Assembly (NCBI GenBank): GCA_013151865.1
Contig: JAADHN010000085.1
Location: 1-40,032 of the forward strand
Length of the DNA: 40,032 nucleotides
Reading direction: 5' to 3'
From: Kiritimatiellota bacterium
Lineage (GTDB): Bacteria; Verrucomicrobiota; Lentisphaeria; Oligosphaerales; JAADHN01
Shown here: positions 12,375 through 36,952 of the stretch, in pieces
Position numbering within the stretch: the first letter of the stretch is position 1
Layout of the letters: each line of letters starts with the position of its first letter
The notes under the pieces: model-generated
Databases searched by the model: none
The model's input: only the letters and a program-made list of their open reading frames with translations
Told to the model about the DNA's origin: nothing
Program-made: the position numbers and the translations under genes

Positions 12375-14144
12375 GTGACGGAAACCGATGCTCCCCGTGG
12401 AATCCGCGCACCGGCCGCGACAGACTTGCGCCGCTTGGTTGCACGTCCCCATCGGGTTGCCGCGGCAGCAATCGCGGGACTCTCCGGCGTATTGCTCAGC
12501 ACGGCATTCCCCCCCCTCGATCTCGGCCCCATCGCCTGGGTGGCGCTGGCGCCGTTTCTCCTCCTGCCTCCCCCGCGGCGAACGGCGACCCAGGCTGTGC
12601 GTGGGTTCACACTGGGTGCGGCCCATTTCCTGACGTGCCTCTTCTGGTTGACGACGGTCACCTGGACCGGGTGGCTCCTCCTGGCTCTGACCTGCGGACT
12701 CTTTCCCATGTTTTGGGCTGTCCTCTGCCTGCCCCTGTTTCGAGCGATGCACGGCCGCCCCCCCTTTCCCGGCACGGGACGGACGCACCCCCCTAACGGG
12801 GCCGTCAGGACCGGCGCCGTCCTACTCAGCGCCGCCGTCTGGTGTGCTCTCGAGTGGTTGCGGTCAACGCTGTTCACAGGCTTCCCCTGGAACTTGCTCG
12901 GCGGCAGCCAGTGGCACAGCCCGCTCTTGCTCGCCACAACAACGGTCACAGGCGTTTACGGTCTGAGCTTCGTCTTGATCGCCGCAAACACGGCGGTCGC
13001 GGCCGGACTGCGGCGCTGGACCCTCGGATTCCTCCGCGGCGGCCTCCGGGGCATCCCTTGGGAATCGCTCGCGGCCACGGCAACCTGTGCGGCGGCACTT
13101 TGGGCGGGATTGACCGCGCCGCGCCTCGGGGCGCCTCGGGGCGCCCTCCGCATCGCCGCGGTCCAAGGCTGTCTGCCACAGGCACGACAGTGGACCCCGG
13201 AACAGCTTGCGCAGGCCCTCAAGGTGTACGACCGACTCAGTCGCACGGCGGCACGCCTACCGGACCGGCCCGACTTGATTGTCTGGCCCGAGACCGCCGT
13301 CCCGGCCCCGCTGCGTTGGGAGGAAAGCTATGCAAACATGTTTCGAAAACTGCTTGCCGACTGTTCCACTTGGTTCCTTATCGGGACTATCGACTACCGT
13401 TTCCCAACCGGAACCAAACCCGAGGCCGAGGCGGAGCCGAATGTTTTCAACAGCGCCTTTCTCTTCGATCCGCGGGGACAACTGCGGGACAGCTACGACA
13501 AGACGCATCCAGTCCCGTTCGGGGAATACACGCCGTTCGAAAAGTATTTGCCATGGCTGGAACGCTGGATCGGCATGGGCCGCAGCCTCACTGCCGGCGT
13601 CGAGTACACCGTGCTCCGACTGCCCAAAAACGTCCGGGCAGGGGTGAACATCTGCTACGAAGACGTCTTTCCCCGAATCAGTCGCGAGTTCGTCCGACGC
13701 GGTGCGAATCTGCTGGTGACGCTGACCAACGACGCCTGGTACGCGGAGAGTGCAGGTTCCGCGCAACACCTGAGCCATGCCGTGCTGCGGGCGGCGGAAA
13801 ACCGGAGGCCGCTGTTGCGCTCCGGAAACAACAGCGACACCTGCCTGATCCTTCCCGACGGCAGGATCACCGCCCTGCTCCGCGACCCCGTGACCGGCGA
13901 CCGATTCCTGCGAGGCGTCCAAACAATCGAGGTCCCCGTTTGGCAGGACCCTCCCCTGACATTCTACGCCCGGCACGGCGACTGGTTCGCCCGCCTCTGC
14001 ACGCTGACAGCCGGATTGTGGGGCCTTGCCTTGGCCGTGCATGGACTGCGTCGACGCGCCTTGCTCCGCACGCGAGTCCTGGGAGCTGAAGCACCCCGTG
14101 CAATGCCGGAGGACGTCCCCGCGGACAGACGGAAAGATCACTGA
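12375..14144 (+). CDS. lnt: Apolipoprotein N-acyltransferase
   Basis: This enzyme adds the third acyl chain to the N-terminal Cys of lipoproteins at the inner membrane. The N-terminal half has several hydrophobic segments. The C-terminal half is the nitrilase-like domain with the catalytic triad E306 (VWPETAVP), K376 (YDKTHPVPFGEY) and C427 (NICYEDVFP), followed by LLVTLTNDAWY and a final membrane segment. From GTG 12375, which has a GGAAGGA site 9 bases upstream, it has 589 residues, slightly long for the family. The frame is open from an ATG at 12249 that lacks a ribosome-binding site. The stop overlaps the convergent PqqD-like gene by 7 bp. Its presence implies a two-membrane envelope with triacylated lipoproteins. 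Confidence 0.93.
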   Translation: MTETDAPRGIRAPAATDLRRLVARPHRVAAAAIAGLSGVLLSTAFPPLDLGPIAWVALAPFLLLPPPRRTATQAVRGFTLGAAHFLTCLFWLTTVTWTGWLLLALTCGLFPMFWAVLCLPLFRAMHGRPPFPGTGRTHPPNGAVRTGAVLLSAAVWCALEWLRSTLFTGFPWNLLGGSQWHSPLLLATTTVTGVYGLSFVLIAANTAVAAGLRRWTLGFLRGGLRGIPWESLAATATCAAALWAGLTAPRLGAPRGALRIAAVQGCLPQARQWTPEQLAQALKVYDRLSRTAARLPDRPDLIVWPETAVPAPLRWEESYANMFRKLLADCSTWFLIGTIDYRFPTGTKPEAEAEPNVFNSAFLFDPRGQLRDSYDKTHPVPFGEYTPFEKYLPWLERWIGMGRSLTAGVEYTVLRLPKNVRAGVNICYEDVFPRISREFVRRGANLLVTLTNDAWYAESAGSAQHLSHAVLRAAENRRPLLRSGNNSDTCLILPDGRITALLRDPVTGDRFLRGVQTIEVPVWQDPPLTFYARHGDWFARLCTLTAGLWGLALAVHGLRRRALLRTRVLGAEAPRAMPEDVPADRRKDH

Positions 14145-14566
14145 GCATCGGGTTGGCCGCCGCCGGTCCGGCGTTGCGGGTCGCGCCGGGAACCGTCAGG
14201 GATTTCCATGGAGATCAAGCCCCGAGTCATCAGGGACTTCAAAAACTCCACGACCGCCACTTCCGCCTCGCGGCGGTTGACGTCGAACTTGTCGGAAAAC
14301 GCCCGAACGAGTTCCCGGACCGTCCGGCGTCCGTCAATCCACTGCCAGACTTGGGCGCCGATCTCGTCGAGTTCGATGCGCCGTTCGCGCACGACCGGGG
14401 CCAGGCGCTCCAGCCACTTCGAACGGAACGGGGGCCTCTTGACGACCAGCAGAAGCGCTTCCCCACCGTCGGCGGGGAACATGCTTACGCCGGGCCGGCG
14501 CACCGGGAGTGCGGAGAACGCTTGGCCACGGCTGAGCTTCGGGGCCTTCGAACCGAACAGCGGCAC
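14138..14566 (-). CDS. PqqD-like protein of an ABC transporter operon
   Basis: This 142-residue protein starts at a GTG (14566) with a strong GGAAAGGA site 8 bases upstream, 25 bp after the ABC ATPase stop; the longer frame to 14683 would overlap that gene. The core reads like a PqqD fold: a beta-rich start ([13 protein letters not shown]), then [17 protein letters not shown], then helices with TVRELVRAF and a C-terminal [12 protein letters not shown]. PqqD-type domains bind leader peptides of RiPPs in many pathways. No pqqA, C or E gene is present, so PQQ synthesis is not implied. It has Arg-rich tails at both ends. Its place at the end of an ABC-FtsX-ABC operon suggests a role tied to that exporter, perhaps substrate recognition; this is inference. 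Confidence 0.72.
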
Positions 14567-14591
14567 CTTTGCAGTCCTTTCCGAACGCGGG

Positions 14592-15401
14592 TCATTCCTC
14601 GCTGTCGTCAATCGTCCCGACGGAAATTCGCAGTTCCTCGCGCCGCTCGATCCGCTCGACCTTGCCATCGCGAATCCAAACAACGCGGTCGGATACGTCC
14701 AGCATCTTCATGTCATGCGTGGCCGAGATGATTGTCACGCCCATACGACTCTTCAAATCGAGCAGCAACTCGATGATCTCGCGCCCCGTCTTCAAGTCGA
14801 GGTTCCCGGTCGGTTCGTCCGCAAGAACAATGGCCGGGTCGTTCGCAATGGCCCGGGCCACGGCCACACGCTGTTGCTGTCCGCCCGACATCTGGAACGG
14901 ACGGTGAAAAACCCGGTCGCCCAATCCCACCATGGCCAGGATTTCGGCCCCCTTCTCGCGCGCATCGTCCGGATGCATCCCCGCAAACAACATGGGCATC
15001 GTGACATTCTCGAGAGCGGTCAGCACCGGCAGCAGATTGAACGATTGGAAGATATACCCGATCTTTCGGCAGCGCAGCCAAGCCAACTCGTAGCTGTCGA
15101 GCTGGGCCACGTCCACCTCGTCGATGAAGACCATGCCGGCGCTGGGAACATCCAATCCGCCGATCATGTTGAACAATGTGGACTTCCCCGAACCGGAAGG
15201 ACCCATGATCGAAAGATACTCGCCCCGGTGGATGCTCAGATCCACGCCCTGCAGTGCGTGAGTGACGCTGCCGCCCATCACGTATTCCTTGGTCACCCCG
15301 ATGGTGCGGACCACCACGTCGCGCGTCAGTCGCCCGCTGTCCGCCGGGGCGGCGGCGGCCGCTTGTGTCGGACACGCCCGATCTGCCGCAACTTCAGCCA
15401 T
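14592..15401 (-). CDS. ABC transporter ATPase, MacB/LolD type (second copy)
   Basis: This 269-residue ATPase of the MacB/LolD subfamily has Walker [10 protein letters not shown], a Q loop in [11 protein letters not shown], the signature [14 protein letters not shown], Walker B IVLADEP and the H loop ISATHD. It would drive an FtsX-type permease that moves lipids, lipoproteins or peptides out of the inner membrane or acts mechanically. I start at the Met at 15401, whose N-terminal ~30 residues are Ala-rich; the frame extends further but overlaps the permease gene. It lies 128 bp after the permease stop. It closely resembles the ATPase encoded at 16237-16998 (shared [16 protein letters not shown]), so the two look like paralogs serving one permease. 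Confidence 0.9.
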
Positions 15402-15529
15402 CAGCGGGTTCCCTATGTTCTGCCCCGGACGCCGCGGCCCGGCCCCCGGGCATCTATGGCGTCCCGCATTTCTCTGCGCCCGCATCCGCTCGACCGGGTC
15501 CACTCCGGTCGGTTCCATGTGAGGCGGGA

Positions 15530-16240
15530 CTACTCTTCCACTCGCAACGCCTCGACCGGCTGCATCCGGGCAGCCTTCCAGGCCGGCCCCACGGCCCCCA
15601 CCACCGAGAGAACGGTCCCGGCAACAGTTCCCCACAGCAGGACACGGACCTCCTGGGCCCAAGGGAAGAACTGCACCGTGTACCGCCCGTACTGAATGCC
15701 CGCAACCGCACCGGCCACCAACAATCCGACAAACTGCCCGATCACGGTACCCACGAGTCCCAAAAAGAGAGATTCCAACAAGAACAGATGCACCACCAAG
15801 CCGTCGGTGGCGCCCAGACATTTCATGGTCCCGATTTCCCGAAACCGCTCGGCCACCGACATGAGCATGGCATTGGCGATCCCCACTGTGCAGGTCAACA
15901 AGGCCATGACGATCAACCAGCGGTCGCGGGGATTGCCGGCCAATGTCGCTTCAATGTTCACACCTGCATCGTAGAGAAGAATGTTGATCGCGTCGTCCCG
16001 CTGCGCCGCCAACTGAGAATTCACCGCATTGATCGTTCCCATGTAGACCAAAAAAGCGATGGCCAGAACGATGGAGGTCATGGTCACCGACGACCGGGCA
16101 ATCCGCACCCGCAGACTCCCGGCCGCAATCGCCGTTTTGGTCGACAGCGGCAAGTGCGCGGCGCCCGAACTCAGCTCCTCGAGCAGGCGGGCGGCGTCTT
16201 CCCCAAGGTCCGCCCGCACATTGTCCGCCACCATGTTCAT
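15530..16240 (-). CDS. Short FtsX-family ABC permease
   Basis: This 236-residue permease has about four membrane segments: one near residues 55-72, two near 105-125 and 143-170, and one near 200-220. The conserved FtsX/MacB cytoplasmic loop ERFREIGTMKCLGA and the C-terminal KAARMQPVEALR are present. Its periplasmic loop is only ~35 residues, so it lacks the large MacB domain and is much shorter than MacB or LolC/E (~400). Its start overlaps the upstream ATPase stop by 4 bp (ATGA), implying translational coupling. The substrate is unknown. With one permease and two ATPases it may form a homodimeric permease with a heterodimeric motor. Confidence 0.87.
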   Translation of the reverse strand: MNMVADNVRADLGEDAARLLEELSSGAAHLPLSTKTAIAAGSLRVRIARSSVTMTSIVLAIAFLVYMGTINAVNSQLAAQRDDAINILLYDAGVNIEATLAGNPRDRWLIVMALLTCTVGIANAMLMSVAERFREIGTMKCLGATDGLVVHLFLLESLFLGLVGTVIGQFVGLLVAGAVAGIQYGRYTVQFFPWAQEVRVLLWGTVAGTVLSVVGAVGPAWKAARMQPVEALRVEE

Positions 16241-16998
16241 TCGATCGTCCCCACCTCGATTTTGATGTCCTTGCGTTCCTCGACGCGCTCAATCTCTCCG
16301 CTCCGCACCCAGACAATCCGGTCGGACACCGATAGCATCTTGTGGTCGTGGGTGGCGGATATGATGGTCACGCCCCGCTCGCGGCTGAGCGATGCCAGCT
16401 TCTCGATGATCTCCTGCCCCGTGTGAAGGTCGAGGTTGGCGGTGGGTTCGTCCGCCAGGATGATCGACGGATCGTTGGCCAGGGCCCGGGCAATGGCCAC
16501 GCGCTGCTGCTGCCCGCCGGACAACTGGTCCGGACGGTGGTGCAGGCGGTCGCCCAGCCCGACCTCAGAGAGGAGGGAAGCGGCCTTTTTCGCGGCCTCG
16601 GACGGCGGCGTCCCCAGAAACAGCATGGGCAGCATTACATTCTGCAACGCCGTCTGAACCGGGATCAAATTGTAGCTCTGGAACACGTAGCCGATCTTGA
16701 GGCAACGGAATCGGGCAAGTTGGACCTGGCTGAGGGTCTTAAGATCGATCCCGTGCACACGAACCGAACCCGCTGTCGGCACGTCCAAGCCGCCGACCAT
16801 GTTGAAGAACGTCGACTTTCCGGAGCCGGACGGCCCCATGATGGAAAGGTACTCGCCCGTGAACACGTCCAAAGACACGTTGCGCAAGGCCTCCACAGTC
16901 TCCCCGCCCAGTCGGAAGACTTTACGGAGCCCCCTGGCCTCGATGATCACGTTCGATCTCGGCGGCCCCGGGGCGGCAGTCTCGATTGCATCCATCAT
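16237..16998 (-). CDS. ABC transporter ATPase, MacB/LolD type (first copy)
   Basis: This 253-residue ATPase has Walker [21 protein letters not shown], the signature [14 protein letters not shown], Walker B IILADEP and [11 protein letters not shown]. It is coupled by an ATGA overlap to the FtsX permease and pairs with the second ATPase downstream. I start at the double Met (16998); the frame runs back to 17193 but without domain content. No strong ribosome-binding site is seen. It lies 201 bp after the HgcAB-like gene on the same strand, with no clear terminator between them, so read-through from the arsR promoter is possible. Confidence 0.9.
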
Positions 16999-17199
16999 GA
17001 GAGAGACGGTCCGAAAATACGCCTTGCGAAAACTCGCGACACGTGCGGATTCGTCCCCCGCAAACCGACCCGACACGTCTGTGCAACGGGTCTTGGCGTG
17101 TTTCGCGACCGGGTTCGGCGCGGGGCCGGAGAAAACGGGCAACATACAGGTCGAACGCCCGTCCGACAAGGCTCCGCGGCGGCCCCAAACCAACCCCTG

Positions 17200-18414
17200 C
17201 TACGGTTTCACCGTTGATGTTGCCGCGTCAGGGGCGGCACAGGTTTTGGAATCGCAGCAGTGAGATGACGTCGCCGTCTCGGTCCCCGGTTCTTTCTGCC
17301 CGTCCGCAGGTTGCCCGAACGATCTGGCGGCGTGGATCGCGGCACAGGCTGGACAAGAGCAATGCCCCGACCGGAAATTGGTTTCGATCGCCTCTGCCGG
17401 ACAGTTTTCGAGGCAGGCGCCGCAAGCTTGGCAGGCGTCATGGTTTACAACCGTAGCTTTCTCTGTTTCGGCATCTCGGGCGAATACATTGGCCGGACAC
17501 ACGATTCGACAGAGCCCACAACCGACGCATCGTTGGGGCACAATCGCAATCCGGGTGCGTTTTACGCCCAGGGCGAGTTCCTTCACATCCGCCCGCCATA
17601 AAGGCGACCAACCGGGCATGTCATAGCCGAGGTAGGTCGCAACCAAGACAATCCAGCCCGTCCACCCCACGGTCTGCCACCCCCCCAAGCCCCATATCGC
17701 CTGCGAAACGACCACAAATGCCGCCGAAACCATAAGCCCGAGCGAGAAGCCTTTCTGTACGCCGGGCTTCCCGGGCAGCCAGAATACCAGCACACTGTTG
17801 AGCATTGCAAGGGAGAACACCAGCGGAACGGAGATCCAGAACAAACCGCGTACCCAAATCGAAACGACCAGCAGGGGGAGGGCCAGGAACAACAACGAAC
17901 TGAAACCAAGATTCGTCCCCATGACGATCCGGTCCGGAAGCTCGAACCTCACGTGGCGGTACGCCCGTGCGACCGACGATTCGCCGCCGCCCAGATACGC
18001 GGCCAAGTGTTTGATGTCCACAGGGCCGAAACGCGGCTCCCAGCCTGTGCGCTTTTTCAGCGCCCAGACGTTTACGCCGGTCGCCGAAAGTTGCGGGAGG
18101 ATCAGCTCCCGGTGGTCGACCCTGTTCTCGACACCGCTCGTCTTGAGTGCCGAAACCACGGTATCGGTCGTGAAATGACCGCCGCCCGCCGCACACCACA
18201 CGTTGATTCCTTTGGTGGGAGCCACGAGTAACCACGCGTCAATGCCGTCGCGCGTCAAGGTTTGAACAACCTTGCGCACAGTCAATTCGAAGTTGCACGT
18301 CACCAGCACCGGAGAGGAGCGCCCGGGATTCCCCACCGGCCGGAGACCCGGCTTGGTTGGGAAGGGGAACAAACGGCCGAAAAGAAGCCAGAAGTCTTTC
18401 AGCAGGTTCCACAT
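17200..18414 (-). CDS. HgcA-HgcB-like fusion: corrinoid membrane protein with ferredoxin domain
   Basis: This 404-residue fusion begins with an HgcA-like corrinoid-binding domain (residues ~35-165) containing NVWCAAG at 71-77. In HgcA the Cys of this motif (here C74) coordinates cobalt of the cobamide. The family's usual Lys after AAG is Gly here (AAGGGHF). About four membrane segments follow (~168-188, 190-213, 222-243, 250-264). The C-terminal part is a two-cluster ferredoxin as in HgcB: C296-C299-C302-C306 and C328-C331-C334-C338. A Cys-rich tail follows (C352, C354, C357, C386-C387, C392), recalling the C-terminal Cys pair of HgcB. HgcAB methylates mercury; whether this fused, Lys-less form does is unknown. 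Its ATG overlaps the methyltransferase stop (TGATG). The upstream ArsR gene supports a metal-linked role. Confidence 0.85.
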   Translation of the reverse strand: MWNLLKDFWLLFGRLFPFPTKPGLRPVGNPGRSSPVLVTCNFELTVRKVVQTLTRDGIDAWLLVAPTKGINVWCAAGGGHFTTDTVVSALKTSGVENRVDHRELILPQLSATGVNVWALKKRTGWEPRFGPVDIKHLAAYLGGGESSVARAYRHVRFELPDRIVMGTNLGFSSLLFLALPLLVVSIWVRGLFWISVPLVFSLAMLNSVLVFWLPGKPGVQKGFSLGLMVSAAFVVVSQAIWGLGGWQTVGWTGWIVLVATYLGYDMPGWSPLWRADVKELALGVKRTRIAIVPQRCVGCGLCRIVCPANVFARDAETEKATVVNHDACQACGACLENCPAEAIETNFRSGHCSCPACAAIHAARSFGQPADGQKEPGTETATSSHCCDSKTCAAPDAATSTVKP

Positions 18415-19052
18415 CACACTTTCTCCATCACAAACAGAGCCAACGTGCCGAACAGATAATCCCGGCGGCAAACGACCCGGAAACCCGCGCGTCCGAGCCG
18501 CTCTTCAAACCGTTTCAGCGCGTGCGTCGTGTTTCGGGTAAGCACAAAGGTCAACGCCGCCGCGGGCCACCTGACAAGGCGGGCGAACAGCCGCTTCCCC
18601 CAGGTCGGCGCCGGCGCCTCGTCGGCCACCACCAACTTGCCGCCTGCCTTGAGAAGAACGGATGAAGCCCGGAGCACAAAATCGAGTTCGTCTTCCGAAA
18701 GTTCACCGAGGGAGAGCGTCGCAACGATACGGTCGAAGCGATCCTCGCCCAGTGCGTCGATCTCCGACGCCGTCATCCGAATCAATTCGGCCTCCGGTGC
18801 GTTCCGGCCGGCTATGGCCAACATGGCCTCCGAGATGTCGATCCCTACAACGCGAGCACCGCGTGCGGTCATCAAAGCGGCAAGTGTCCCCGTCCCGCAA
18901 CCGATCTCCAAAACATCCTGGCCGGGCCCCACCCAGGTCGATGCAATTTCCCGCTTGATTCGATCAATCCGACCCAGGGTAAGGAGGCGCATTCCACGGT
19001 CGTACTTTTCCGGGGTCCGCTCCAGCATTTTCATGTAAACCAAGGTGGACAT
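18414..19052 (-). CDS. Class I SAM methyltransferase of the HgcAB-like operon
   Basis: This 212-residue Rossmann methyltransferase has motif I VLEIGCGTGTLAAL (residues ~47-60), an acidic motif II GIDISEAMLA, and a DRIVATLSLGELS motif IV region. The C-terminal third carries a hydrophobic stretch (WPAAALTFVL) that may dock at the membrane. It overlaps the HgcAB-like gene by one base in a TGATG junction, so the two are made together. Methyltransferases associated with corrinoid proteins of this kind have been named CpaM, from memory; I have not verified the match. It could supply or transfer methyl groups in the corrinoid pathway, or methylate a metal or a small molecule. The ATG at 19052 is the only convincing start. 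Confidence 0.82.
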   Translation of the reverse strand: MSTLVYMKMLERTPEKYDRGMRLLTLGRIDRIKREIASTWVGPGQDVLEIGCGTGTLAALMTARGARVVGIDISEAMLAIAGRNAPEAELIRMTASEIDALGEDRFDRIVATLSLGELSEDELDFVLRASSVLLKAGGKLVVADEAPAPTWGKRLFARLVRWPAAALTFVLTRNTTHALKRFEERLGRAGFRVVCRRDYLFGTLALFVMEKV

Positions 19053-19178: not shown

Positions 19179-19568
19179 TCATCTTCTGCCGTCCCTTTCC
19201 TGGACTCGTACCTCGGCATCTTCAGTGAGACACCAGGCGCTCTCCAACAGCTTGAAAACGCACGGATCAACCGCACGATACAAGATCCGGTTCCCATTTC
19301 GGCGGTACCCAAGTACGCCCCGGTGAATGAGTCGCTGGAGCTGGTTCGAAACGGCCGTGGGCTTCATGCCCAATGTTTTCGCCAACTCCGATACGCAAAT
19401 CTCGTCGGCCAGACAGAAGGCATGCAGTATCCGAAGCCTCGTACCGTTGGCGAGCACCTTGAAGGTCTGCTCAAGGGAGGTCGCCTGTTCTTCCGTAAGC
19501 AGGGGACGGCTTTTGAGGTCGGGCTTCACCGGGCAGCACGATCCCTTCCGTACCGCATTCATGGGCAT
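19179..19568 (-). CDS. ArsR-family metal-responsive repressor
   Basis: This 129-residue winged-helix regulator has LANGTRLRILHAF, CVSELAKTLGMKPTAVSNQLQRLIHRGVL (recognition helix) and the wing YRRNGNRILYRA. Candidate metal thiolates are C11-C12 near the N-terminus, C52, C58 (the EICVSELA position used by ArsR/CadC-type sensors), C103 and C113. It starts at the ATG at 19568 after a GGAGG site (TTGGAGGATGCCC). It is the first gene of the run into the methyltransferase and HgcAB-like genes, and its promoter carries a palindrome, so autoregulation with release by a thiophilic metal or metalloid is the natural model. ArsR-type genes are known beside hgcAB in some bacteria. Confidence 0.9.
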   Translation of the reverse strand: MPMNAVRKGSCCPVKPDLKSRPLLTEEQATSLEQTFKVLANGTRLRILHAFCLADEICVSELAKTLGMKPTAVSNQLQRLIHRGVLGYRRNGNRILYRAVDPCVFKLLESAWCLTEDAEVRVQERDGRR

Positions 19569-19596: not shown

Positions 19597-19639
19597 ATCT
19601 ACACTATTCCAGTATAACGTGGATAGATGGTTCTGTCAA
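19597..19639 (-). promoter_or_regulatory. Consensus sigma-70 promoter and palindromic operator of the arsR operon
   Basis: On the minus strand TTGACA (19639-19634), a 17-bp spacer and TATACT (19616-19611) match the consensus almost perfectly. A dyad covers the -10: ATCTA (19597-19601) with TAGAT (19624-19628), and the inner half-sites CTAT(T)CCA and TGGATAG. A repressor bound there would block RNA polymerase. Confidence 0.75.
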
Positions 19640-19895: not shown

Positions 19896-20618
19896 ATGGA
19901 CGACAAAAAGAACATCGAGGCGACGCTCGCGGGCGACACCCGGGCTTTTGCGGCGCTTGTTCGGAAGTACCAGGCAGTAACGTACGCCGTGGCCCTGCAG
20001 CGCGTGGGCAATGCCGCTGATGCGGAAGAAATCGTCCAGGATGTTTTCAGTTGCGTGTATCGCAAGTTGGATCAACTCAAAGACGCAGCACGGTTCGGCG
20101 CCTGGCTGCGTTCGATCACTCTCCGGCAATGCGGAATGCACCTTCGCGCCAAGAGCCGAAAGCTCGAGATCGTGGCGCTGCCGGCGGAAGCACTGGATTC
20201 GGTCGAGGACGTCGGTCGGCAGCGCGAGGCAATGTTTGACGTCGAGACCTTGATTGGAGAACTCCCGGAAGGGCTGAAAGCAGCGGCCGTGTTGTGCCTT
20301 TCGGACGACGTTTCACCGGCGGCTGCGGCAGCCATGCTCGGTCTCAAACCGGGGACTCTCCGCAAACGCCTTCACGATGCCCGCGCCAGGCTGCAGCGCC
20401 GGATCGTTGAAAAGGCAGAAAAAGAGATTCGGCTGCATCTATTGCCCAAAGATTTCGCCGAAAGATGCGTGTGTCGATGTGAGAAGGCTCGCGCGTCAAA
20501 GGCAGGAAAGGAGGTGAACCCCATGGCTGAGAACAAGAAGAAGGACTGCGGCTGCGGCTGTCTCGGCAAGGCCAAAGCGAAAGGCAAGACGGAACAGAAA
20601 GAGAAGAACAAGAAGTGA
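19896..20618 (+). CDS. ECF sigma factor with Cys/Lys-rich C-terminal extension
   Basis: This 240-residue protein begins as a typical ECF sigma-70 factor: region 2 (residues ~10-80, with RVGNAADAEEIVQDVF and RFGAWLRSITLRQC) and region 4 (~115-170, LPEGLKAAAVLCLSDDVSPAAAAAMLGLKPGTLRKRLHDARARL). ECF factors usually end there. Here ~70 further residues follow: CVCRC, a basic linker, then CGCGC and a Lys-rich tail. The start has GGAGGCAGG upstream. No anti-sigma gene is adjacent. The Cys clusters suggest metal or redox sensing, or binding of iron-sulfur components. The final 31 codons also form a separate small ORF with a perfect Shine-Dalgarno, so the extension may partly reflect a fused downstream gene. 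Confidence 0.88.
   Translation: MDDKKNIEATLAGDTRAFAALVRKYQAVTYAVALQRVGNAADAEEIVQDVFSCVYRKLDQLKDAARFGAWLRSITLRQCGMHLRAKSRKLEIVALPAEALDSVEDVGRQREAMFDVETLIGELPEGLKAAAVLCLSDDVSPAAAAAMLGLKPGTLRKRLHDARARLQRRIVEKAEKEIRLHLLPKDFAERCVCRCEKARASKAGKEVNPMAENKKKDCGCGCLGKAKAKGKTEQKEKNKK
20523..20618 (+). CDS. Nested small ORF, CGCGC Lys-rich peptide, in frame with the sigma factor
   Basis: An ATG at 20523 is preceded by AAAGGAGGTGA (20507-20516 plus one base), an 11-nt perfect match to the 16S rRNA 3' end, with GGAGG 8 bases before the ATG. The 31-residue product starts MAENKKKD, contains CGCGC at residues 9-13 and ends in a run rich in Lys and Glu. It is in the same frame as the sigma factor, so it would be made both as that protein's tail and alone. 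A metallothionein-like or metal-delivery peptide is possible. Independent translation is inferred from the ribosome-binding site only. Confidence 0.55.
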   Translation: MAENKKKDCGCGCLGKAKAKGKTEQKEKNKK

Positions 20619-32292: not shown

Positions 32293-33207
32293 ATGCACAT
32301 CGGCCGAGCCTGGTGGTCCCTGTTGCCGCTTATCCTGGCGGGCGGACTGCTGCGAAGCACAGCCGCCGGCATCGTCGTGGAGGGCAAAGAAGAGATCCTA
32401 TACCTTGACGGACTGGCGGAGCCGACCCGATGGCGACCGGCCGAATGTACGGTGACCCGGGCCGCGCAGAAATTCCGGGCCGAGGGACGCCCTACCCTTC
32501 ACCTCCATATCCCCGTCGACTACAGCGCAGGAGAAAAGCAGTATCCGATCGGCTGGCCGCGAATGTATTGCGGACTCCGCAAACCGGACGAAACCGACTG
32601 GACCCGGTTCGACCGGTTCGAATTCATGATCTATGCCGAAATGTCGCGACCGAAACCGCCGTCCAAACCGCTGACGTTCCAAATGCTCTGCCCCTTGCGC
32701 GACACCGGCTATGTCCATGAATTGACCGAAATCCGCCTCGGCCGATGGGTCCGTATTGTCGTACCCATCGCCGACAAACCCAACTTGGAACGCATCGCCA
32801 CGCTGGGGTTCAATATCTCCGAGTCCAACTACCGAGACGGCGACCGGCTCGATTTCTACGTCGGCGCTTTCCGACTGGTCCGCTCCACGGAGTGCGCCCT
32901 GAGCCGCGTCCGCATCCTGGCCCCGGCAATCTTCCAGGGACGTCCGGACCTGCCTGTCGAACTGGTGGTCACCGGTCCCCCCGCCAGGGTCGGCCGGGGC
33001 ATTCCGTTCACGATCCGGCGCGGTAAAGAGGCGCTGCGCCGCGAAATGCTGCCCGTCACCCGCGGACGACAGGTGCTGCACATGGGGATCGCGGAACTCG
33101 ACCTTTCGCCCGGCGACTACACGTTGACCGCGTTCGACGACGACCCGGAAAAACGCCGGACCGCGCACTTCAAAGTGGTGGCGACACCATGGAAAGGGGC
33201 GCAGTAA
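32293..33207 (+). CDS. Secreted beta-sandwich protein of the polysaccharide block
   Basis: This 304-residue protein has a signal peptide (WWSLLPLILAGGLL). Residues ~25-200 look like a galactose-binding-type beta-sandwich: a Trp/Tyr-rich start with LYLDGLAEPTRWRP, then FDRFEFMIYAEM and RWVRIVVPIAD. The C-terminal ~90 residues are an Ig-like domain ending DYTLTAFDDDP. No catalytic motif is seen, so a binding role is likely. The next gene starts 19 bp before its stop, and a third gene overlaps that one, so the three (304, 462 and 792 residues) form a translationally linked set. I do not recognise a named family. Confidence 0.8.
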   Translation: MHIGRAWWSLLPLILAGGLLRSTAAGIVVEGKEEILYLDGLAEPTRWRPAECTVTRAAQKFRAEGRPTLHLHIPVDYSAGEKQYPIGWPRMYCGLRKPDETDWTRFDRFEFMIYAEMSRPKPPSKPLTFQMLCPLRDTGYVHELTEIRLGRWVRIVVPIADKPNLERIATLGFNISESNYRDGDRLDFYVGAFRLVRSTECALSRVRILAPAIFQGRPDLPVELVVTGPPARVGRGIPFTIRRGKEALRREMLPVTRGRQVLHMGIAELDLSPGDYTLTAFDDDPEKRRTAHFKVVATPWKGAQ

Positions 33208-34577
33208 CCATTTCGCAGCCACCCCCCATTTCCAGATCTCCGGCGGCCCGGGAACGCAGACGCCCGGCGCTCCCCTGTCTGTTGCCCGTCGCGATGCTCC
33301 TGTGCGCTTGCGCCGCCGTCCAGGCGGAGATCGCAACCTATCGGATTCAACGTGCCGAAACACCGCCGACGGTCGACGGTTCGCTCTCCGACCCTTGCTG
33401 GACCAAAGCATGTCGGGTGACTTCTTTTCATCCCCTCGGTACAGCGGCCGGAACTACGGCCGCAGTCCCGGCCACCGAAGCATGGCTCACGTACGACGCA
33501 CAGGCCCTCTTCATCGCTTTCCGGTGTCGGGAACCTCTCGCCGCCGGACTCGAAGCCCCGGAGCGCCCGCACGACGGTCCGACTTGGCGCGACAACGGCG
33601 TCGAGATCTTTCTCGACCCCGCCGGCAACAGGACTCAGTACGTCCAGATTGCCGTGAACCTCGCCGGGAGCATCATGGACGGTTTCATCCCCTCCCCCGC
33701 CGGAAAGTTGAATCTCGGCTGGGAAACCGGCGCGTCCGCCGCAGTCCGCGTCGGAGACAACGAATGGACGCTCGAAATCCGGGTCCCGTTCAGCGGCCTG
33801 CCGCTGACTCGGCCGCGCGGGCCGTGGACCTTTCACCTCGCCCGAAATCGAGCCGCCGCCGGCCAGCACCTCACCTCGCTCCGAACCCCGGTCAGCGGTT
33901 ACCACGAAATTGCGAACTTCGCGCGCCTCGAAGGGATCGACCTTCCCGAGTTCGCCGTGTGTGTCCTGAACGCGACCCCCGGAGAATCCTTTGCCGGGAT
34001 CAACCGGTGTCGGGTACTGTTGCGCAATTGGGGAAAAGCACCCGCCGCAGTCCGGCTCGCGGCCGGGATCGAGGGAGAGGCGCGCCCGAAACGGACCCGC
34101 AAGGCCCTCCTGCTGGCGGCGAACAGCACTACAACCGCTGTATTGCCCTGGACGCTCGAAGCCGGCGACGGCGGAAAAAGATTCGCGATCGAAGTCCGCC
34201 TCGCCGAGAACAACCGGCTCATCCGCAGGCAAACCTGGCCCCTCCCCGAACCGCCGCCCATATTGGGCAAAATCGAACGCCCGGTCTTCTATTACCGACA
34301 GAGTCGCTGCGTGTTGCTGACGATCCCCATCAACCTGGCGGAAGGCTCCAGGGGCCGCGCCCGGCTGAGTTGGCAAGCCCGAAACGCCCGCGGGGACATC
34401 GTCGGAAACGGATTCACCACCGCGCCCAACCGAGACGCCGTGCTGCGCCTGTACTGGCCTCACTGGTTCCCGGGACGGTACACACTGCACATGACTCTCG
34501 CCCGAAACGGCGGTGTCCTGGCCGAGTCGGAACAGCCCCTGCGACTTGTCGAAAACCCATGGAACGAACGACGATGA
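33189..34577 (+). CDS. Secreted CBM9/DOMON-like protein
   Basis: This 462-residue protein has an N-terminal signal peptide (LLPVAMLLCACAAVQA) that contains a possible lipoprotein Cys. The next ~200 residues have the CBM9/DOMON-like signature: TPPTVDGSLSDPCWTKA, AWLTYDAQALFIAFRC, and DNGVEIFLDPAGNRTQYVQIAVN. These domains bind reducing sugar ends or heme. The context favours sugar. The C-terminal half is two Ig-like beta domains. It overlaps its neighbours on both sides (19 bp and 4 bp), showing tight coupling. No catalytic residues are evident. Confidence 0.85.
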   Translation: MERGAVTISQPPPISRSPAARERRRPALPCLLPVAMLLCACAAVQAEIATYRIQRAETPPTVDGSLSDPCWTKACRVTSFHPLGTAAGTTAAVPATEAWLTYDAQALFIAFRCREPLAAGLEAPERPHDGPTWRDNGVEIFLDPAGNRTQYVQIAVNLAGSIMDGFIPSPAGKLNLGWETGASAAVRVGDNEWTLEIRVPFSGLPLTRPRGPWTFHLARNRAAAGQHLTSLRTPVSGYHEIANFARLEGIDLPEFAVCVLNATPGESFAGINRCRVLLRNWGKAPAAVRLAAGIEGEARPKRTRKALLLAANSTTTAVLPWTLEAGDGGKRFAIEVRLAENNRLIRRQTWPLPEPPPILGKIERPVFYYRQSRCVLLTIPINLAEGSRGRARLSWQARNARGDIVGNGFTTAPNRDAVLRLYWPHWFPGRYTLHMTLARNGGVLAESEQPLRLVENPWNERR

Positions 34578-36952
34578 AGCATCCCCGAAATTCGGTGGTC
34601 TCGGATCGGCGGTGGCCGAATGCACCCGTGCGAGGCCGAGCCTTTCTCCTCGCGGCATTCGTTCTGCTCCGCGCCGCGGCGGCGCCGGGACCGGCGGCCG
34701 CCGTGCTTTTGGATTTCGGCAAGAACGATTCACCCTTGCAGAAAGGGTTCGCGCGACTGACCCCCACGTCCGTTTTCAAGCCCGGCGTCAGGGCCGGCTG
34801 GGTCCGACCGACCGGTCTCCGGGCCGAGGCGGACCCGATCCGACGCGAAGGCACGTACAGCGCCTCCCGCGGCAGGACGGAACCGCCGCCGATCTATCTC
34901 ACCGAACTCTCCTGCGACCGCGTCGAAAGCGACGCGGCCGCCGTGCTCCGGGTGACGCTGCCGCCCGGAAATTACCGGATGTGGGTCCTGTTGGGCCCCG
35001 GCGGCGGCAACAGGGCCCAGGTTTGGGATGCCGCCGTCGACGTGGCCGGTAGCACCCTGACCGCAACGCTGGCGGGCCCCTGGGACAGCCGGGTCCGCCG
35101 GCACGCTTTCTCGAACCCCGCCGATCAACTCGATATCCGCTTCGATACCCGCAGTCGTTGGGCCGTAAGTGCGCTGGCCATTGCGTCCGAAAAAGCGTGG
35201 CCCGCCATCGAGAAGGACTTCATAAAACCGGCGGAGCAGGCGATCTTTCTCTTGCCGCCCGAACTCCTGGCCAAGTGGAAGGTCCGACCTCGAGTGAAAC
35301 CGGACCCTCAACCCCAGTTCACCGACGCGGAGAAAAAGCGCGGGTTCGTGCTGTATCACCGGCACTGGTCGCAACCGATCTGGCCGACCAGTGCGCCTCG
35401 ACGAAGTGAAATCGACCCCACACTCAAGGCGTTCGCCGCTCCGGACGAGTACGAACCCCTGACCCTGTCCGTCTATCCGTTGCGGCCGGAAACCCTGGAA
35501 CGCGTGACCGTGACCGACCTGGTCGCCGCCGGTTCGGGCAGTCGGGTCCCCGCCGACCAGGTCGACGTGCGTTGGGTGCGTACCATGGCCGTCCGCCCGA
35601 ATTATCGCGTCGTCGGCGCCTATTATCGCGCGCCCGATGTGCTCATGCCGTGGCGCGGCCCCCGCACCCTCGTGCCGAACGAGAGCCTGAGGCTCTGGCT
35701 GACGCTCCATGTCGGCCCGGCAGTGCCGGACGACGTGTACCGCGGAGAAATCCGGTTGACATTCGCCGGGGGCGCCGCGACACGCACCCCCGTCGTCTTC
35801 CGGGTGGCCGGCATCAAACTCGAAAAGGACCGCTCCCTGGTGTACGGAGCCTACTACCACCACCCGTTCAACCGCATGTTCGCCGCCCCGGATGCATTCT
35901 CGCGGCAGTGGTGGCGCCGCAAAGCGGAACTCGAACACGCGGACATGGCCGCCCACGGCAACAATACCCTCGTGCTCGGGCTCGGCGGACACTCCGTCGG
36001 CGGCGGCAAGTGGCGGTTCGATTTCGACCGCCTCGGACAGATGATCGACCTCTACCGTCGCGTCGGCTTTTACCAACCCATCATCTGTCATTTCCCGGTC
36101 GGCAGCCTCTATCGCAAATACATGAAATCGTCGCCCGGCTCGCACCTCCGACTGGTCAAAATGCCGCCGAAACCCTTTTTCGACGAACTGACCGCCATGG
36201 TCCGCGACATCGAGACCGAACGCCGGCGGCGGCAGTGGCCCGAACTCCTCTACTACCCCATCGACGAACCCGCCACCACCGAAGTCGCCGTGAACTTCAT
36301 GACGCAGGTCATGAAAGCCATCAAACGCGTGCCCGGCGTCCGCACATACGTCACCGCCGATCCGGCCAATGACGCTTTTTCACCCATGCGCCCCTACGTG
36401 AATGTCTGGTGCTGCCAACCGTTCAGCCTCGCCCGGGACACCGTGATCGCCGACATGAAGAAGCGCCCGGTCGAGTATTGGTGCTACCCCAATCACGTCG
36501 CCGGCGAAAACGACCACACGCCGGTGGCCGGGGCACGCATGACCTACGGGTTCGGGTTCTGGCGGTCCGGGTTCCGCGCGCTTACACCGTGGATCTACCA
36601 AGCCGTGATCGGCAATCCCTGGAATTACCTCGACGGTGGCGCCATGGACTTCTTCAACCGGACCGACGACGACGGCAGCCCCATTCCCGTAACTCTGTGG
36701 GAGGCTTATCGCGAAGGTATCGACGACGGACGATACCTCGCCACCCTGGACCGCTGGATCGACCGCGCCCGGGCCGCGGGCAAGACCGACGCCGTCCGGG
36801 AAGCGCAAGCCGACCGCCGCCTGCTCTGGGAAGCCATCCCGGTCATGCCCAAGTACAAGTACGAAGTCGACTGGACCCCGGAAACGTTCGATGTGTTCCG
36901 TTGGCTCCTGGCGCAACGTATTCTCAAACTGAAGGCCGCTCTCGGGCAATGA
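34574..36952 (+). CDS. Secreted GH123/DUF4091-like glycoside hydrolase
   Basis: This 792-residue protein has a signal peptide (AFLLAAFVLLRAAAAPGPAAA). An N-terminal beta-sandwich (VLLDFGKNDSPLQKGF) is followed by an Ig-like domain and a TIM-barrel-like C-terminal half. The C-terminus carries the DUF4091 pattern (GNPWNYLDGGAMDFF, LWEAYREGIDDGRYLATL) seen after GH123-type barrels. The acidic pair in YPIDEPATTEV is the best active-site candidate. The activity is probably on N-acetylated or deoxy sugars; this is inference. The ATG overlaps the previous stop by 4 bp (ATGA); the frame is open 1.2 kb further upstream, but that part is a shadow of the CBM9-like gene. Confidence 0.83.
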   Translation: MKHPRNSVVSDRRWPNAPVRGRAFLLAAFVLLRAAAAPGPAAAVLLDFGKNDSPLQKGFARLTPTSVFKPGVRAGWVRPTGLRAEADPIRREGTYSASRGRTEPPPIYLTELSCDRVESDAAAVLRVTLPPGNYRMWVLLGPGGGNRAQVWDAAVDVAGSTLTATLAGPWDSRVRRHAFSNPADQLDIRFDTRSRWAVSALAIASEKAWPAIEKDFIKPAEQAIFLLPPELLAKWKVRPRVKPDPQPQFTDAEKKRGFVLYHRHWSQPIWPTSAPRRSEIDPTLKAFAAPDEYEPLTLSVYPLRPETLERVTVTDLVAAGSGSRVPADQVDVRWVRTMAVRPNYRVVGAYYRAPDVLMPWRGPRTLVPNESLRLWLTLHVGPAVPDDVYRGEIRLTFAGGAATRTPVVFRVAGIKLEKDRSLVYGAYYHHPFNRMFAAPDAFSRQWWRRKAELEHADMAAHGNNTLVLGLGGHSVGGGKWRFDFDRLGQMIDLYRRVGFYQPIICHFPVGSLYRKYMKSSPGSHLRLVKMPPKPFFDELTAMVRDIETERRRRQWPELLYYPIDEPATTEVAVNFMTQVMKAIKRVPGVRTYVTADPANDAFSPMRPYVNVWCCQPFSLARDTVIADMKKRPVEYWCYPNHVAGENDHTPVAGARMTYGFGFWRSGFRALTPWIYQAVIGNPWNYLDGGAMDFFNRTDDDGSPIPVTLWEAYREGIDDGRYLATLDRWIDRARAAGKTDAVREAQADRRLLWEAIPVMPKYKYEVDWTPETFDVFRWLLAQRILKLKAALGQ

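Follow-up and report, generated by a model that had tools for sequence, protein, structure and literature searches.

Canonical HgcA and HgcB are encoded by separate genes and together comprise a corrinoid domain with an NVWC cap, a membrane core, and a dicluster ferredoxin followed by a terminal pair of cysteines. Cys73 of HgcB is strictly conserved (PMC7305189, PMC11588087). Their methyl donor, measured in 2024, is SAM, although HgcAB has no recognized SAM-binding domain, and the purified canonical proteins use SAM without CpaM (PMC11588087). The fused HgcABs of Pyrococcus furiosus, Methanococcoides methylutens, Kosmotoga pacifica, and an Atribacterium, known here from the literature only, are likewise HgcA-HgcB fusions, and such proteins have been treated as HgcA paralogues and used to root HgcA trees (PMC7438021). 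In P. furiosus and M. methylutens, methylmercury did not rise above controls (PMC5893877). NCBIfam holds models for an “HgcAB-like fusion protein” (NF043039) and for a SAM-dependent corrinoid protein-associated methyltransferase, CpaM (NF043040), whose entries say nothing about function apart from the name. Our literature search found no paper naming CpaM or “HgcAB fusion,” and we know of no biochemistry on any CpaM-linked member. The protein described here shares the elements of HgcA and HgcB listed above, including a Cys73-like residue, and differs from them in being a single polypeptide, in having four rather than five membrane helices, in carrying glycine for lysine behind the cap cysteine, and in its CpaM partner.

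Architecture and position of the fusion protein

The window, which is the whole stretch of 40,032 nucleotides analyzed here from a Kiritimatiellota bacterium, encodes on its minus strand a protein of 404 amino acids (17200..18414, stop included), with the ATG at 18414 and the stop codon ending at 17200. It scored 371.8 bits against NF043039 (cut-off of 285) and matched positions 2 to 349 of the 350 in the profile. The single open frame and this full-length match rule out a chance or frameshift artifact. The scores against the models for HgcA (NF040863, 172.1 bits, cut-off of 275) and HgcB (NF040864, 47.8 bits, cut-off of 99) were below threshold, and the ferredoxin is also not a separate protein. 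The fusion is a member of an already named, functionally uncharacterized family and no new kind of protein; it shares with the NF043039/NF043040 family both the full-length match and a cpaM gene directly upstream.

The original prediction, made from the sequence alone, had placed a corrinoid cap motif, a membrane core, a two-cluster ferredoxin, and a cysteine-rich tail in one polypeptide, and the reading frame, the profiles, and a structural model all bear this out. From the N terminus, and all on the minus strand, these are a corrinoid-binding domain at about residues 20 to 141 (17992..18357; PF03599 at residues 17 to 138, 70.6 bits, cut-off of 24.8), which includes the cap motif NVWCAAGG at residues 71 to 78 (18181..18204); a membrane core of four long helices at residues 159 to 268 (17611..17940), delimited by DSSP of the model and by the hydropathy of fused and unfused proteins; and an HgcB-like dicluster ferredoxin at residues 289 to 345 (17380..17550), with partial matches to Fer4 (42.2 bits in the profile search) and NF040864 and two CxxCxxCxxxCP motifs starting at residues 296 and 328. 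The cysteine tail, delimited by alignment with relatives, consists of C352-S-C354-P-A-C357 followed by C386, C387, and C392 (17239..17361).

The AlphaFold model, built with 42 relatives, had a mean pLDDT of 77.8, with high values in the corrinoid and ferredoxin parts and a disordered tail. Its corrinoid domain is of the Rossmann type, with pLDDT mostly of about 90 to 96 and lower values near residues 71 to 80. The first Foldseek match was the HgcAB model 9a0b (E = 3.8e−12), followed by CFeSP structures. In the alignment, the N, W, and C of the cap are invariant, and Cys74 corresponds to the cobalt-ligand cysteine of HgcA. C352 takes the position of the essential Cys73 of HgcB, and the C-terminal cysteine pair of HgcB also has a counterpart. 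Fold and motif together support the prediction that the fusion protein uses a corrinoid. The large subunit of CFeSP (AcsC/CdhE; PDB 2h9a and 4djd) has a homologous corrinoid domain, superposable over about 127 residues at 2.1 to 2.3 Å, but unlike the fusion it has neither the cysteine cap nor a membrane part.

A rooted tree of 121 shared columns, which included 13 CFeSP and 15 HgcA proteins, recovered CFeSP (support of 100/100), HgcA (100/98), and the CpaM-linked proteins (98/82) as separate clades. The window fusion falls within the CpaM clade, in a bacterial subclade of ten sequences (100/96). In this tree the CpaM clade is the sister of HgcA, not of CFeSP; together with the cap motif, the separate position of the 13 CFeSP proteins rules out a CFeSP subunit. 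A place among CFeSP-like proteins outside HgcA, which the original prediction had named as its refutation, was not the outcome, but the protein does lie outside HgcA proper, in the sister clade. The homology to HgcA and HgcB, the use of a corrinoid, and a possible soft-metal acceptor, all part of the original prediction, are supported by the top structural match and by the grouping with HgcA. That prediction had missed the named family, the clade-wide absence of the lysine, and the upstream genes for ArsR and CpaM; the SAM partner and the ArsR operator are what alters the mechanism most.

Pairing with CpaM and the missing lysine

The cpaM gene (18414..19052, minus strand) encodes 212 amino acids, matches NF043040 with 258.3 bits (cut-off of 180), and ends in a stop codon that overlaps the start of the fusion gene by 1 nucleotide (TGATG). 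It occurs once in the genome of the window, beside the fusion. CpaM has an ordinary SAM-methyltransferase fold. The pairing extends well beyond this locus. Among 195 genomes that we label Asgard-type, after the phylum of a Baldrarchaeota locus, 71 encoded an HgcA-like protein, 72 encoded CpaM, and 70 encoded both (Fisher test, P = 1.6e−49, a value that ignores kinship among genomes). The 81 HgcA-like hits in these genomes had CpaM just upstream in 34 cases and in the same long open frame in 45 (79 of 81 in total). In a control phylum otherwise rich in canonical HgcA, 9 of 297 genomes encoded CpaM, 8 of them beside or in frame with an HgcAB-like gene and the ninth at a contig edge. CpaM was found beside none of 45 canonical HgcA loci (30 in the control phylum and 15 elsewhere). 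Nearly all members of the clade for which upstream sequence is available have CpaM there, the gene ends usually overlapping or almost touching (in L042, CpaM was identified by tblastn). In one relative, L043, ArsR and the fusion are present and no CpaM was found in its draft MAG.

In some genomes the partners form one protein. Complete CpaM-HgcA-HgcB polypeptides of 637 to 647 amino acids occur in three Asgard-type loci (L129, L131, and L132) and in one of the class Dehalococcoidia of Chloroflexota (L106), and a further case lies at a contig edge in another phylum (L223). The model of the triple fusion had a mean pLDDT of 89 and a pTM of 0.89. On the tree, the four complete fusions need at least two origins, one of them having a long branch. 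A third architecture, widespread in Asgard-type genomes, joins CpaM to HgcA (about 545 to 585 amino acids) and leaves the HgcB-like gene separate (L139 to L156 and L165 to L170). Gene order, these fusions, and, by analogy, the use of SAM measured for canonical HgcAB (PMC11588087) support a functional coupling of SAM and corrinoid through CpaM.

The lysine after AAG had been described as usually conserved in HgcA and replaced by glycine here. Both statements hold. The fourth residue after the NVWC cysteine was lysine in 43 of 45 canonical HgcA proteins and alanine in 2; in the CpaM clade it was glycine in 91 proteins, alanine in 1, methionine in 1, and lysine in none of 93, Gly78 being the residue in the window protein. 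This clade-wide absence rules out a one-off mutation. The sequence NVWCAAGAGTFGT, with alanine for lysine, is found in two canonical HgcA proteins that score far above the cut-off and have no adjoining CpaM (L207:1492-2640, minus strand, and L212:1345-2499, plus strand), so that the lysine is not an absolute marker of HgcA. Nor is its loss due to the fusion with HgcB: in Asgard genomes, CpaM-linked HgcA proteins without an attached HgcB part have glycine as well, which ties the change to CpaM rather than to the ferredoxin. Since the clade is one branch, this loss counts as one evolutionary event and the association is a correlation only. The cap lysine of canonical HgcA may belong to its own handling of SAM.

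Membrane topology also differs. Unfused HgcA proteins, canonical ones included, showed five hydrophobic segments in most cases and fused proteins mostly four, in agreement with the four long helices of the window model, which lacks the fifth helix of canonical HgcA. To judge from this topology, loss of the fifth helix may have permitted the C-terminal ferredoxin, because an even number of helices would return the C terminus to the side of the corrinoid domain.

The ArsR-linked subclade and its genomic context

Our scan of 85,000 species genomes for relatives of the fusion returned 11 loci: nine close relatives at 61 to 70% identity and a more distant pair, from Dehalococcoidia and Baldrarchaeota. 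The close relatives were recorded as including Bacteroidota, Deltaproteobacteria, Planctomycetota, Campylobacterota, Nitrospirota, FCB, and Kiritimatiellota, although individual host assignments could reflect misbinning, since some of the MAGs seem to stem from one study. The Kiritimatiellota relative (L006, identical in sequence to L045) comes from a MAG of the same class as the genome of the window. Members of the family above the cut-off were present in 8 of 245 Dehalococcoidia-class genomes and in 27 of 195 Asgard-type genomes. A canonical HgcA above the cut-off was missing from all 11 genomes of that first scan. A search of plasmids gave a single weak and partial match (31%). Two Bacteroidota-labeled MAGs (G319 and G320) encode, besides the ArsR-linked protein, a second HgcAB-like fusion of archaeal type (L137:4626-5780 and L226:7537-8691, both on the minus strand).

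Upstream of cpaM, the window encodes an ArsR/SmtB metalloregulator (19179..19568, minus strand; NF033788, 73.7 bits, cut-off of 55) that aligns with the regulators of eight relatives. An ArsR of this one kind is found upstream in all nine subclade loci that cover that side (the window and the eight relatives). The window protein has an N-terminal CysCys, a cysteine in EICVSEL, and the cysteines of DPC and WC; in the subclade, the N-terminal pair is present in most ArsR proteins and the DPC and WC cysteines in all. In most relatives, a promoter of the form TTGAC(A)-N17-TATANT overlaps the pattern CACTATTCCA-N8-TGGAATAGTG. The equivalent region of the window (19602-19639) contains a sigma-70-type promoter, TTGACA-N17-TATACT (19611..19639, minus strand), overlapping a probable ArsR operator, CATCTATCCA-N8-TGGAATAGTG (19602..19629, minus strand), which agrees with the pattern of the relatives at 16 of 20 positions; one such related pattern was found in the window against none expected from shuffled sequence. 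One relative (L041) showed neither the conserved promoter nor the operator. Promoter and operator, arsR, cpaM, and the fusion gene apparently form an operon in this order.

Other genes surround these. A gene for an ECF sigma factor runs divergently from arsR (19896-20618, plus strand), and its product has a lysine- and cysteine-rich tail (KKKDCGCGCLG...) that is unusual for its family. Downstream of the fusion, at 14138-17193 on the minus strand, lie two LolD/MacB-type ABC ATPases, parts of FtsX-like permeases, and a PqqD-like protein; these genes are not conserved in the relatives, which rules out the ABC transporters (14.6 to 17.2 kb) as part of the system. Between arsR and cpaM, relatives encode two further proteins (L038:8462-9369 and the equivalent regions of L037, L039, L040, L042, and L044): in five relatives a 141-amino-acid protein with weak similarity to an OB-fold, and in six a 161-amino-acid membrane protein with GCCGSP in a helix and a cysteine-rich end. 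Both are absent from the window operon and had no significant match to a Pfam family.

What the subclade of the window has beyond other NF043039 members is an ArsR whose operator is conserved, a tail of the form GxCxCPxC, and the arsC and acr3 genes found in one relative. The cysteines of the tail, 14, 16, and 19 residues after the second cluster, were invariant in all ten proteins of the bacterial subclade and missing from the other subclades read. In the Kiritimatiellota relative, the onward genes encode ArsR, ArsC (of the pI258 type, just below the model cut-off), a P1B metal ATPase, and the arsenite pump ACR3. Just after arsC lies a gene for a CysCys-rich protein of 62 amino acids (GGCCGSGESCCC ... 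SCCDSSCDC; L006:82-270, minus strand), which may bind a metal(loid). Another relative has a P1B ATPase after its locus, and ACR3 is encoded a few genes upstream of one Asgard-type triple fusion. Canonical hgcAB is often near ars genes too (PMC7438021); given this, and with arsC and acr3 flanking only 1 of 10 loci, the substrate cannot be read from the arsenic context.

Proposed mechanism and alternatives

The locus sits behind a metal-sensing switch, which suggests that the fusion probably methylates a toxic soft metal(loid) such as arsenic. With slightly better than even confidence, we propose that CpaM passes a methyl group from SAM to the corrinoid and from there to a thiophilic metal(loid), the element being left unnamed, at the membrane and under ArsR control. 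A thiophilic metal(loid) would free ArsR from its operator. The fused [4Fe-4S] ferredoxin would pass electrons to the bound cobamide, reducing it to Co(I), and CpaM would then move the methyl group from SAM to Co(I), giving a methyl-Co(III) stabilized by Cys74. Finally, the cysteine tail would hand over the soft metal(loid), which would accept the methyl group. The regulator, the tail, and a few neighboring genes hint at the acceptor, with arsenite as the favored and still tentative first candidate, and Hg(II) or another thiophile next. A bolder version, which we hold to be unlikely, is that anaerobes methylate arsenic by means of CpaM-HgcAB, a B12- and SAM-dependent system without relation to ArsM, whose dedicated methyltransferase loads the HgcA-like corrinoid protein; the sister HgcAB would have taken over the direct use of SAM, and the cap lysine would be part of that change.

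It is rather improbable that the operon encodes a second mercury methylase, a fused and CpaM-assisted HgcAB making methylmercury beside the canonical pair. All cysteines known to be important in HgcA and HgcB have counterparts (C74, C352, and the CC pair near the C terminus), the fold is that of HgcAB, and the lysine need not be essential, as the two canonical HgcA proteins with alanine are above the cut-off. Against this, the fusion reaches 172 of the 275 bits required for HgcA, no mer genes were recognized beside the operon in the loci read, and the two tested organisms with fused hgcAB, which may belong to another subclade, made no methylmercury above controls (PMC5893877). These scores and assays, with the missing lysine, leave the suggestion of the original prediction that the protein could methylate mercury unsupported as such.

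A non-metal methyl acceptor (for instance, a lipid, a thiol, or another protein), with ArsR sensing thiol or redox stress only, is likewise unlikely for the subclade of the window, where the presence of ArsR, its shared operator, and an unvarying CxCPxC tail argue against it. It gains from the rest of the clade: archaeal and other bacterial members, including those of Asgard genomes, Dehalococcoidia, and the control phylum, are mostly without ArsR, ars genes, and the cysteine tail, so that the family as a whole need not concern metals.

Because purified canonical HgcAB uses SAM without CpaM, the role of CpaM might be a different one. It could be a repair enzyme only, rescuing Co(II) with SAM in the way established for the reactivation of MetH, and a separate donor would then supply the working methyl group; several host genomes do carry CFeSP-type genes. 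We consider this quite improbable: in three hosts (G323, G325, and G326) no other CFeSP or HgcA relative was found, the protein already contains its own ferredoxin for reductive activation, and canonical HgcAB takes its catalytic methyl groups from SAM (PMC11588087). That the fusion is a decaying, inactive paralogue kept by chance after transfer, as the scattered hosts of the subclade might suggest, is hardly credible, since corrinoid and cluster residues, gene order, and operator are all kept at about 60 to 70% identity across many phyla.

The proposed transfer from SAM through CpaM and the corrinoid to a soft metal(loid) would belong to an ArsR-controlled, Cys-tailed subclade of a known uncharacterized family, a subclade of which we found no description. 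What makes the locus interesting is less the missing lysine than the almost strict way in which an HgcA relative and a SAM methyltransferase are paired. A sister family whose SAM methyltransferase adjoins, or is fused to, the same kind of corrinoid protein can be compared directly with HgcAB, whose native role and means of obtaining methyl groups are still in question. The genome of the window also encodes, on another contig, a canonical hgcA-hgcB pair identified by profile matches (G000:C175, about 33198-34800, corresponding to L138:8200-9802 and L004; HgcA, 442 bits; HgcB, 116 bits; motif NVWCAAGKGTFGT). A putative mercury methylator therefore also carries the CpaM-linked fusion, and the presence of both in one cell is a natural control. 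For metagenome surveys, CpaM-linked proteins should not be counted as mercury methylators, from which CpaM linkage and the missing lysine tell them apart. If the acceptor is arsenic, a B12-dependent route would be added to the arsenic cycle.
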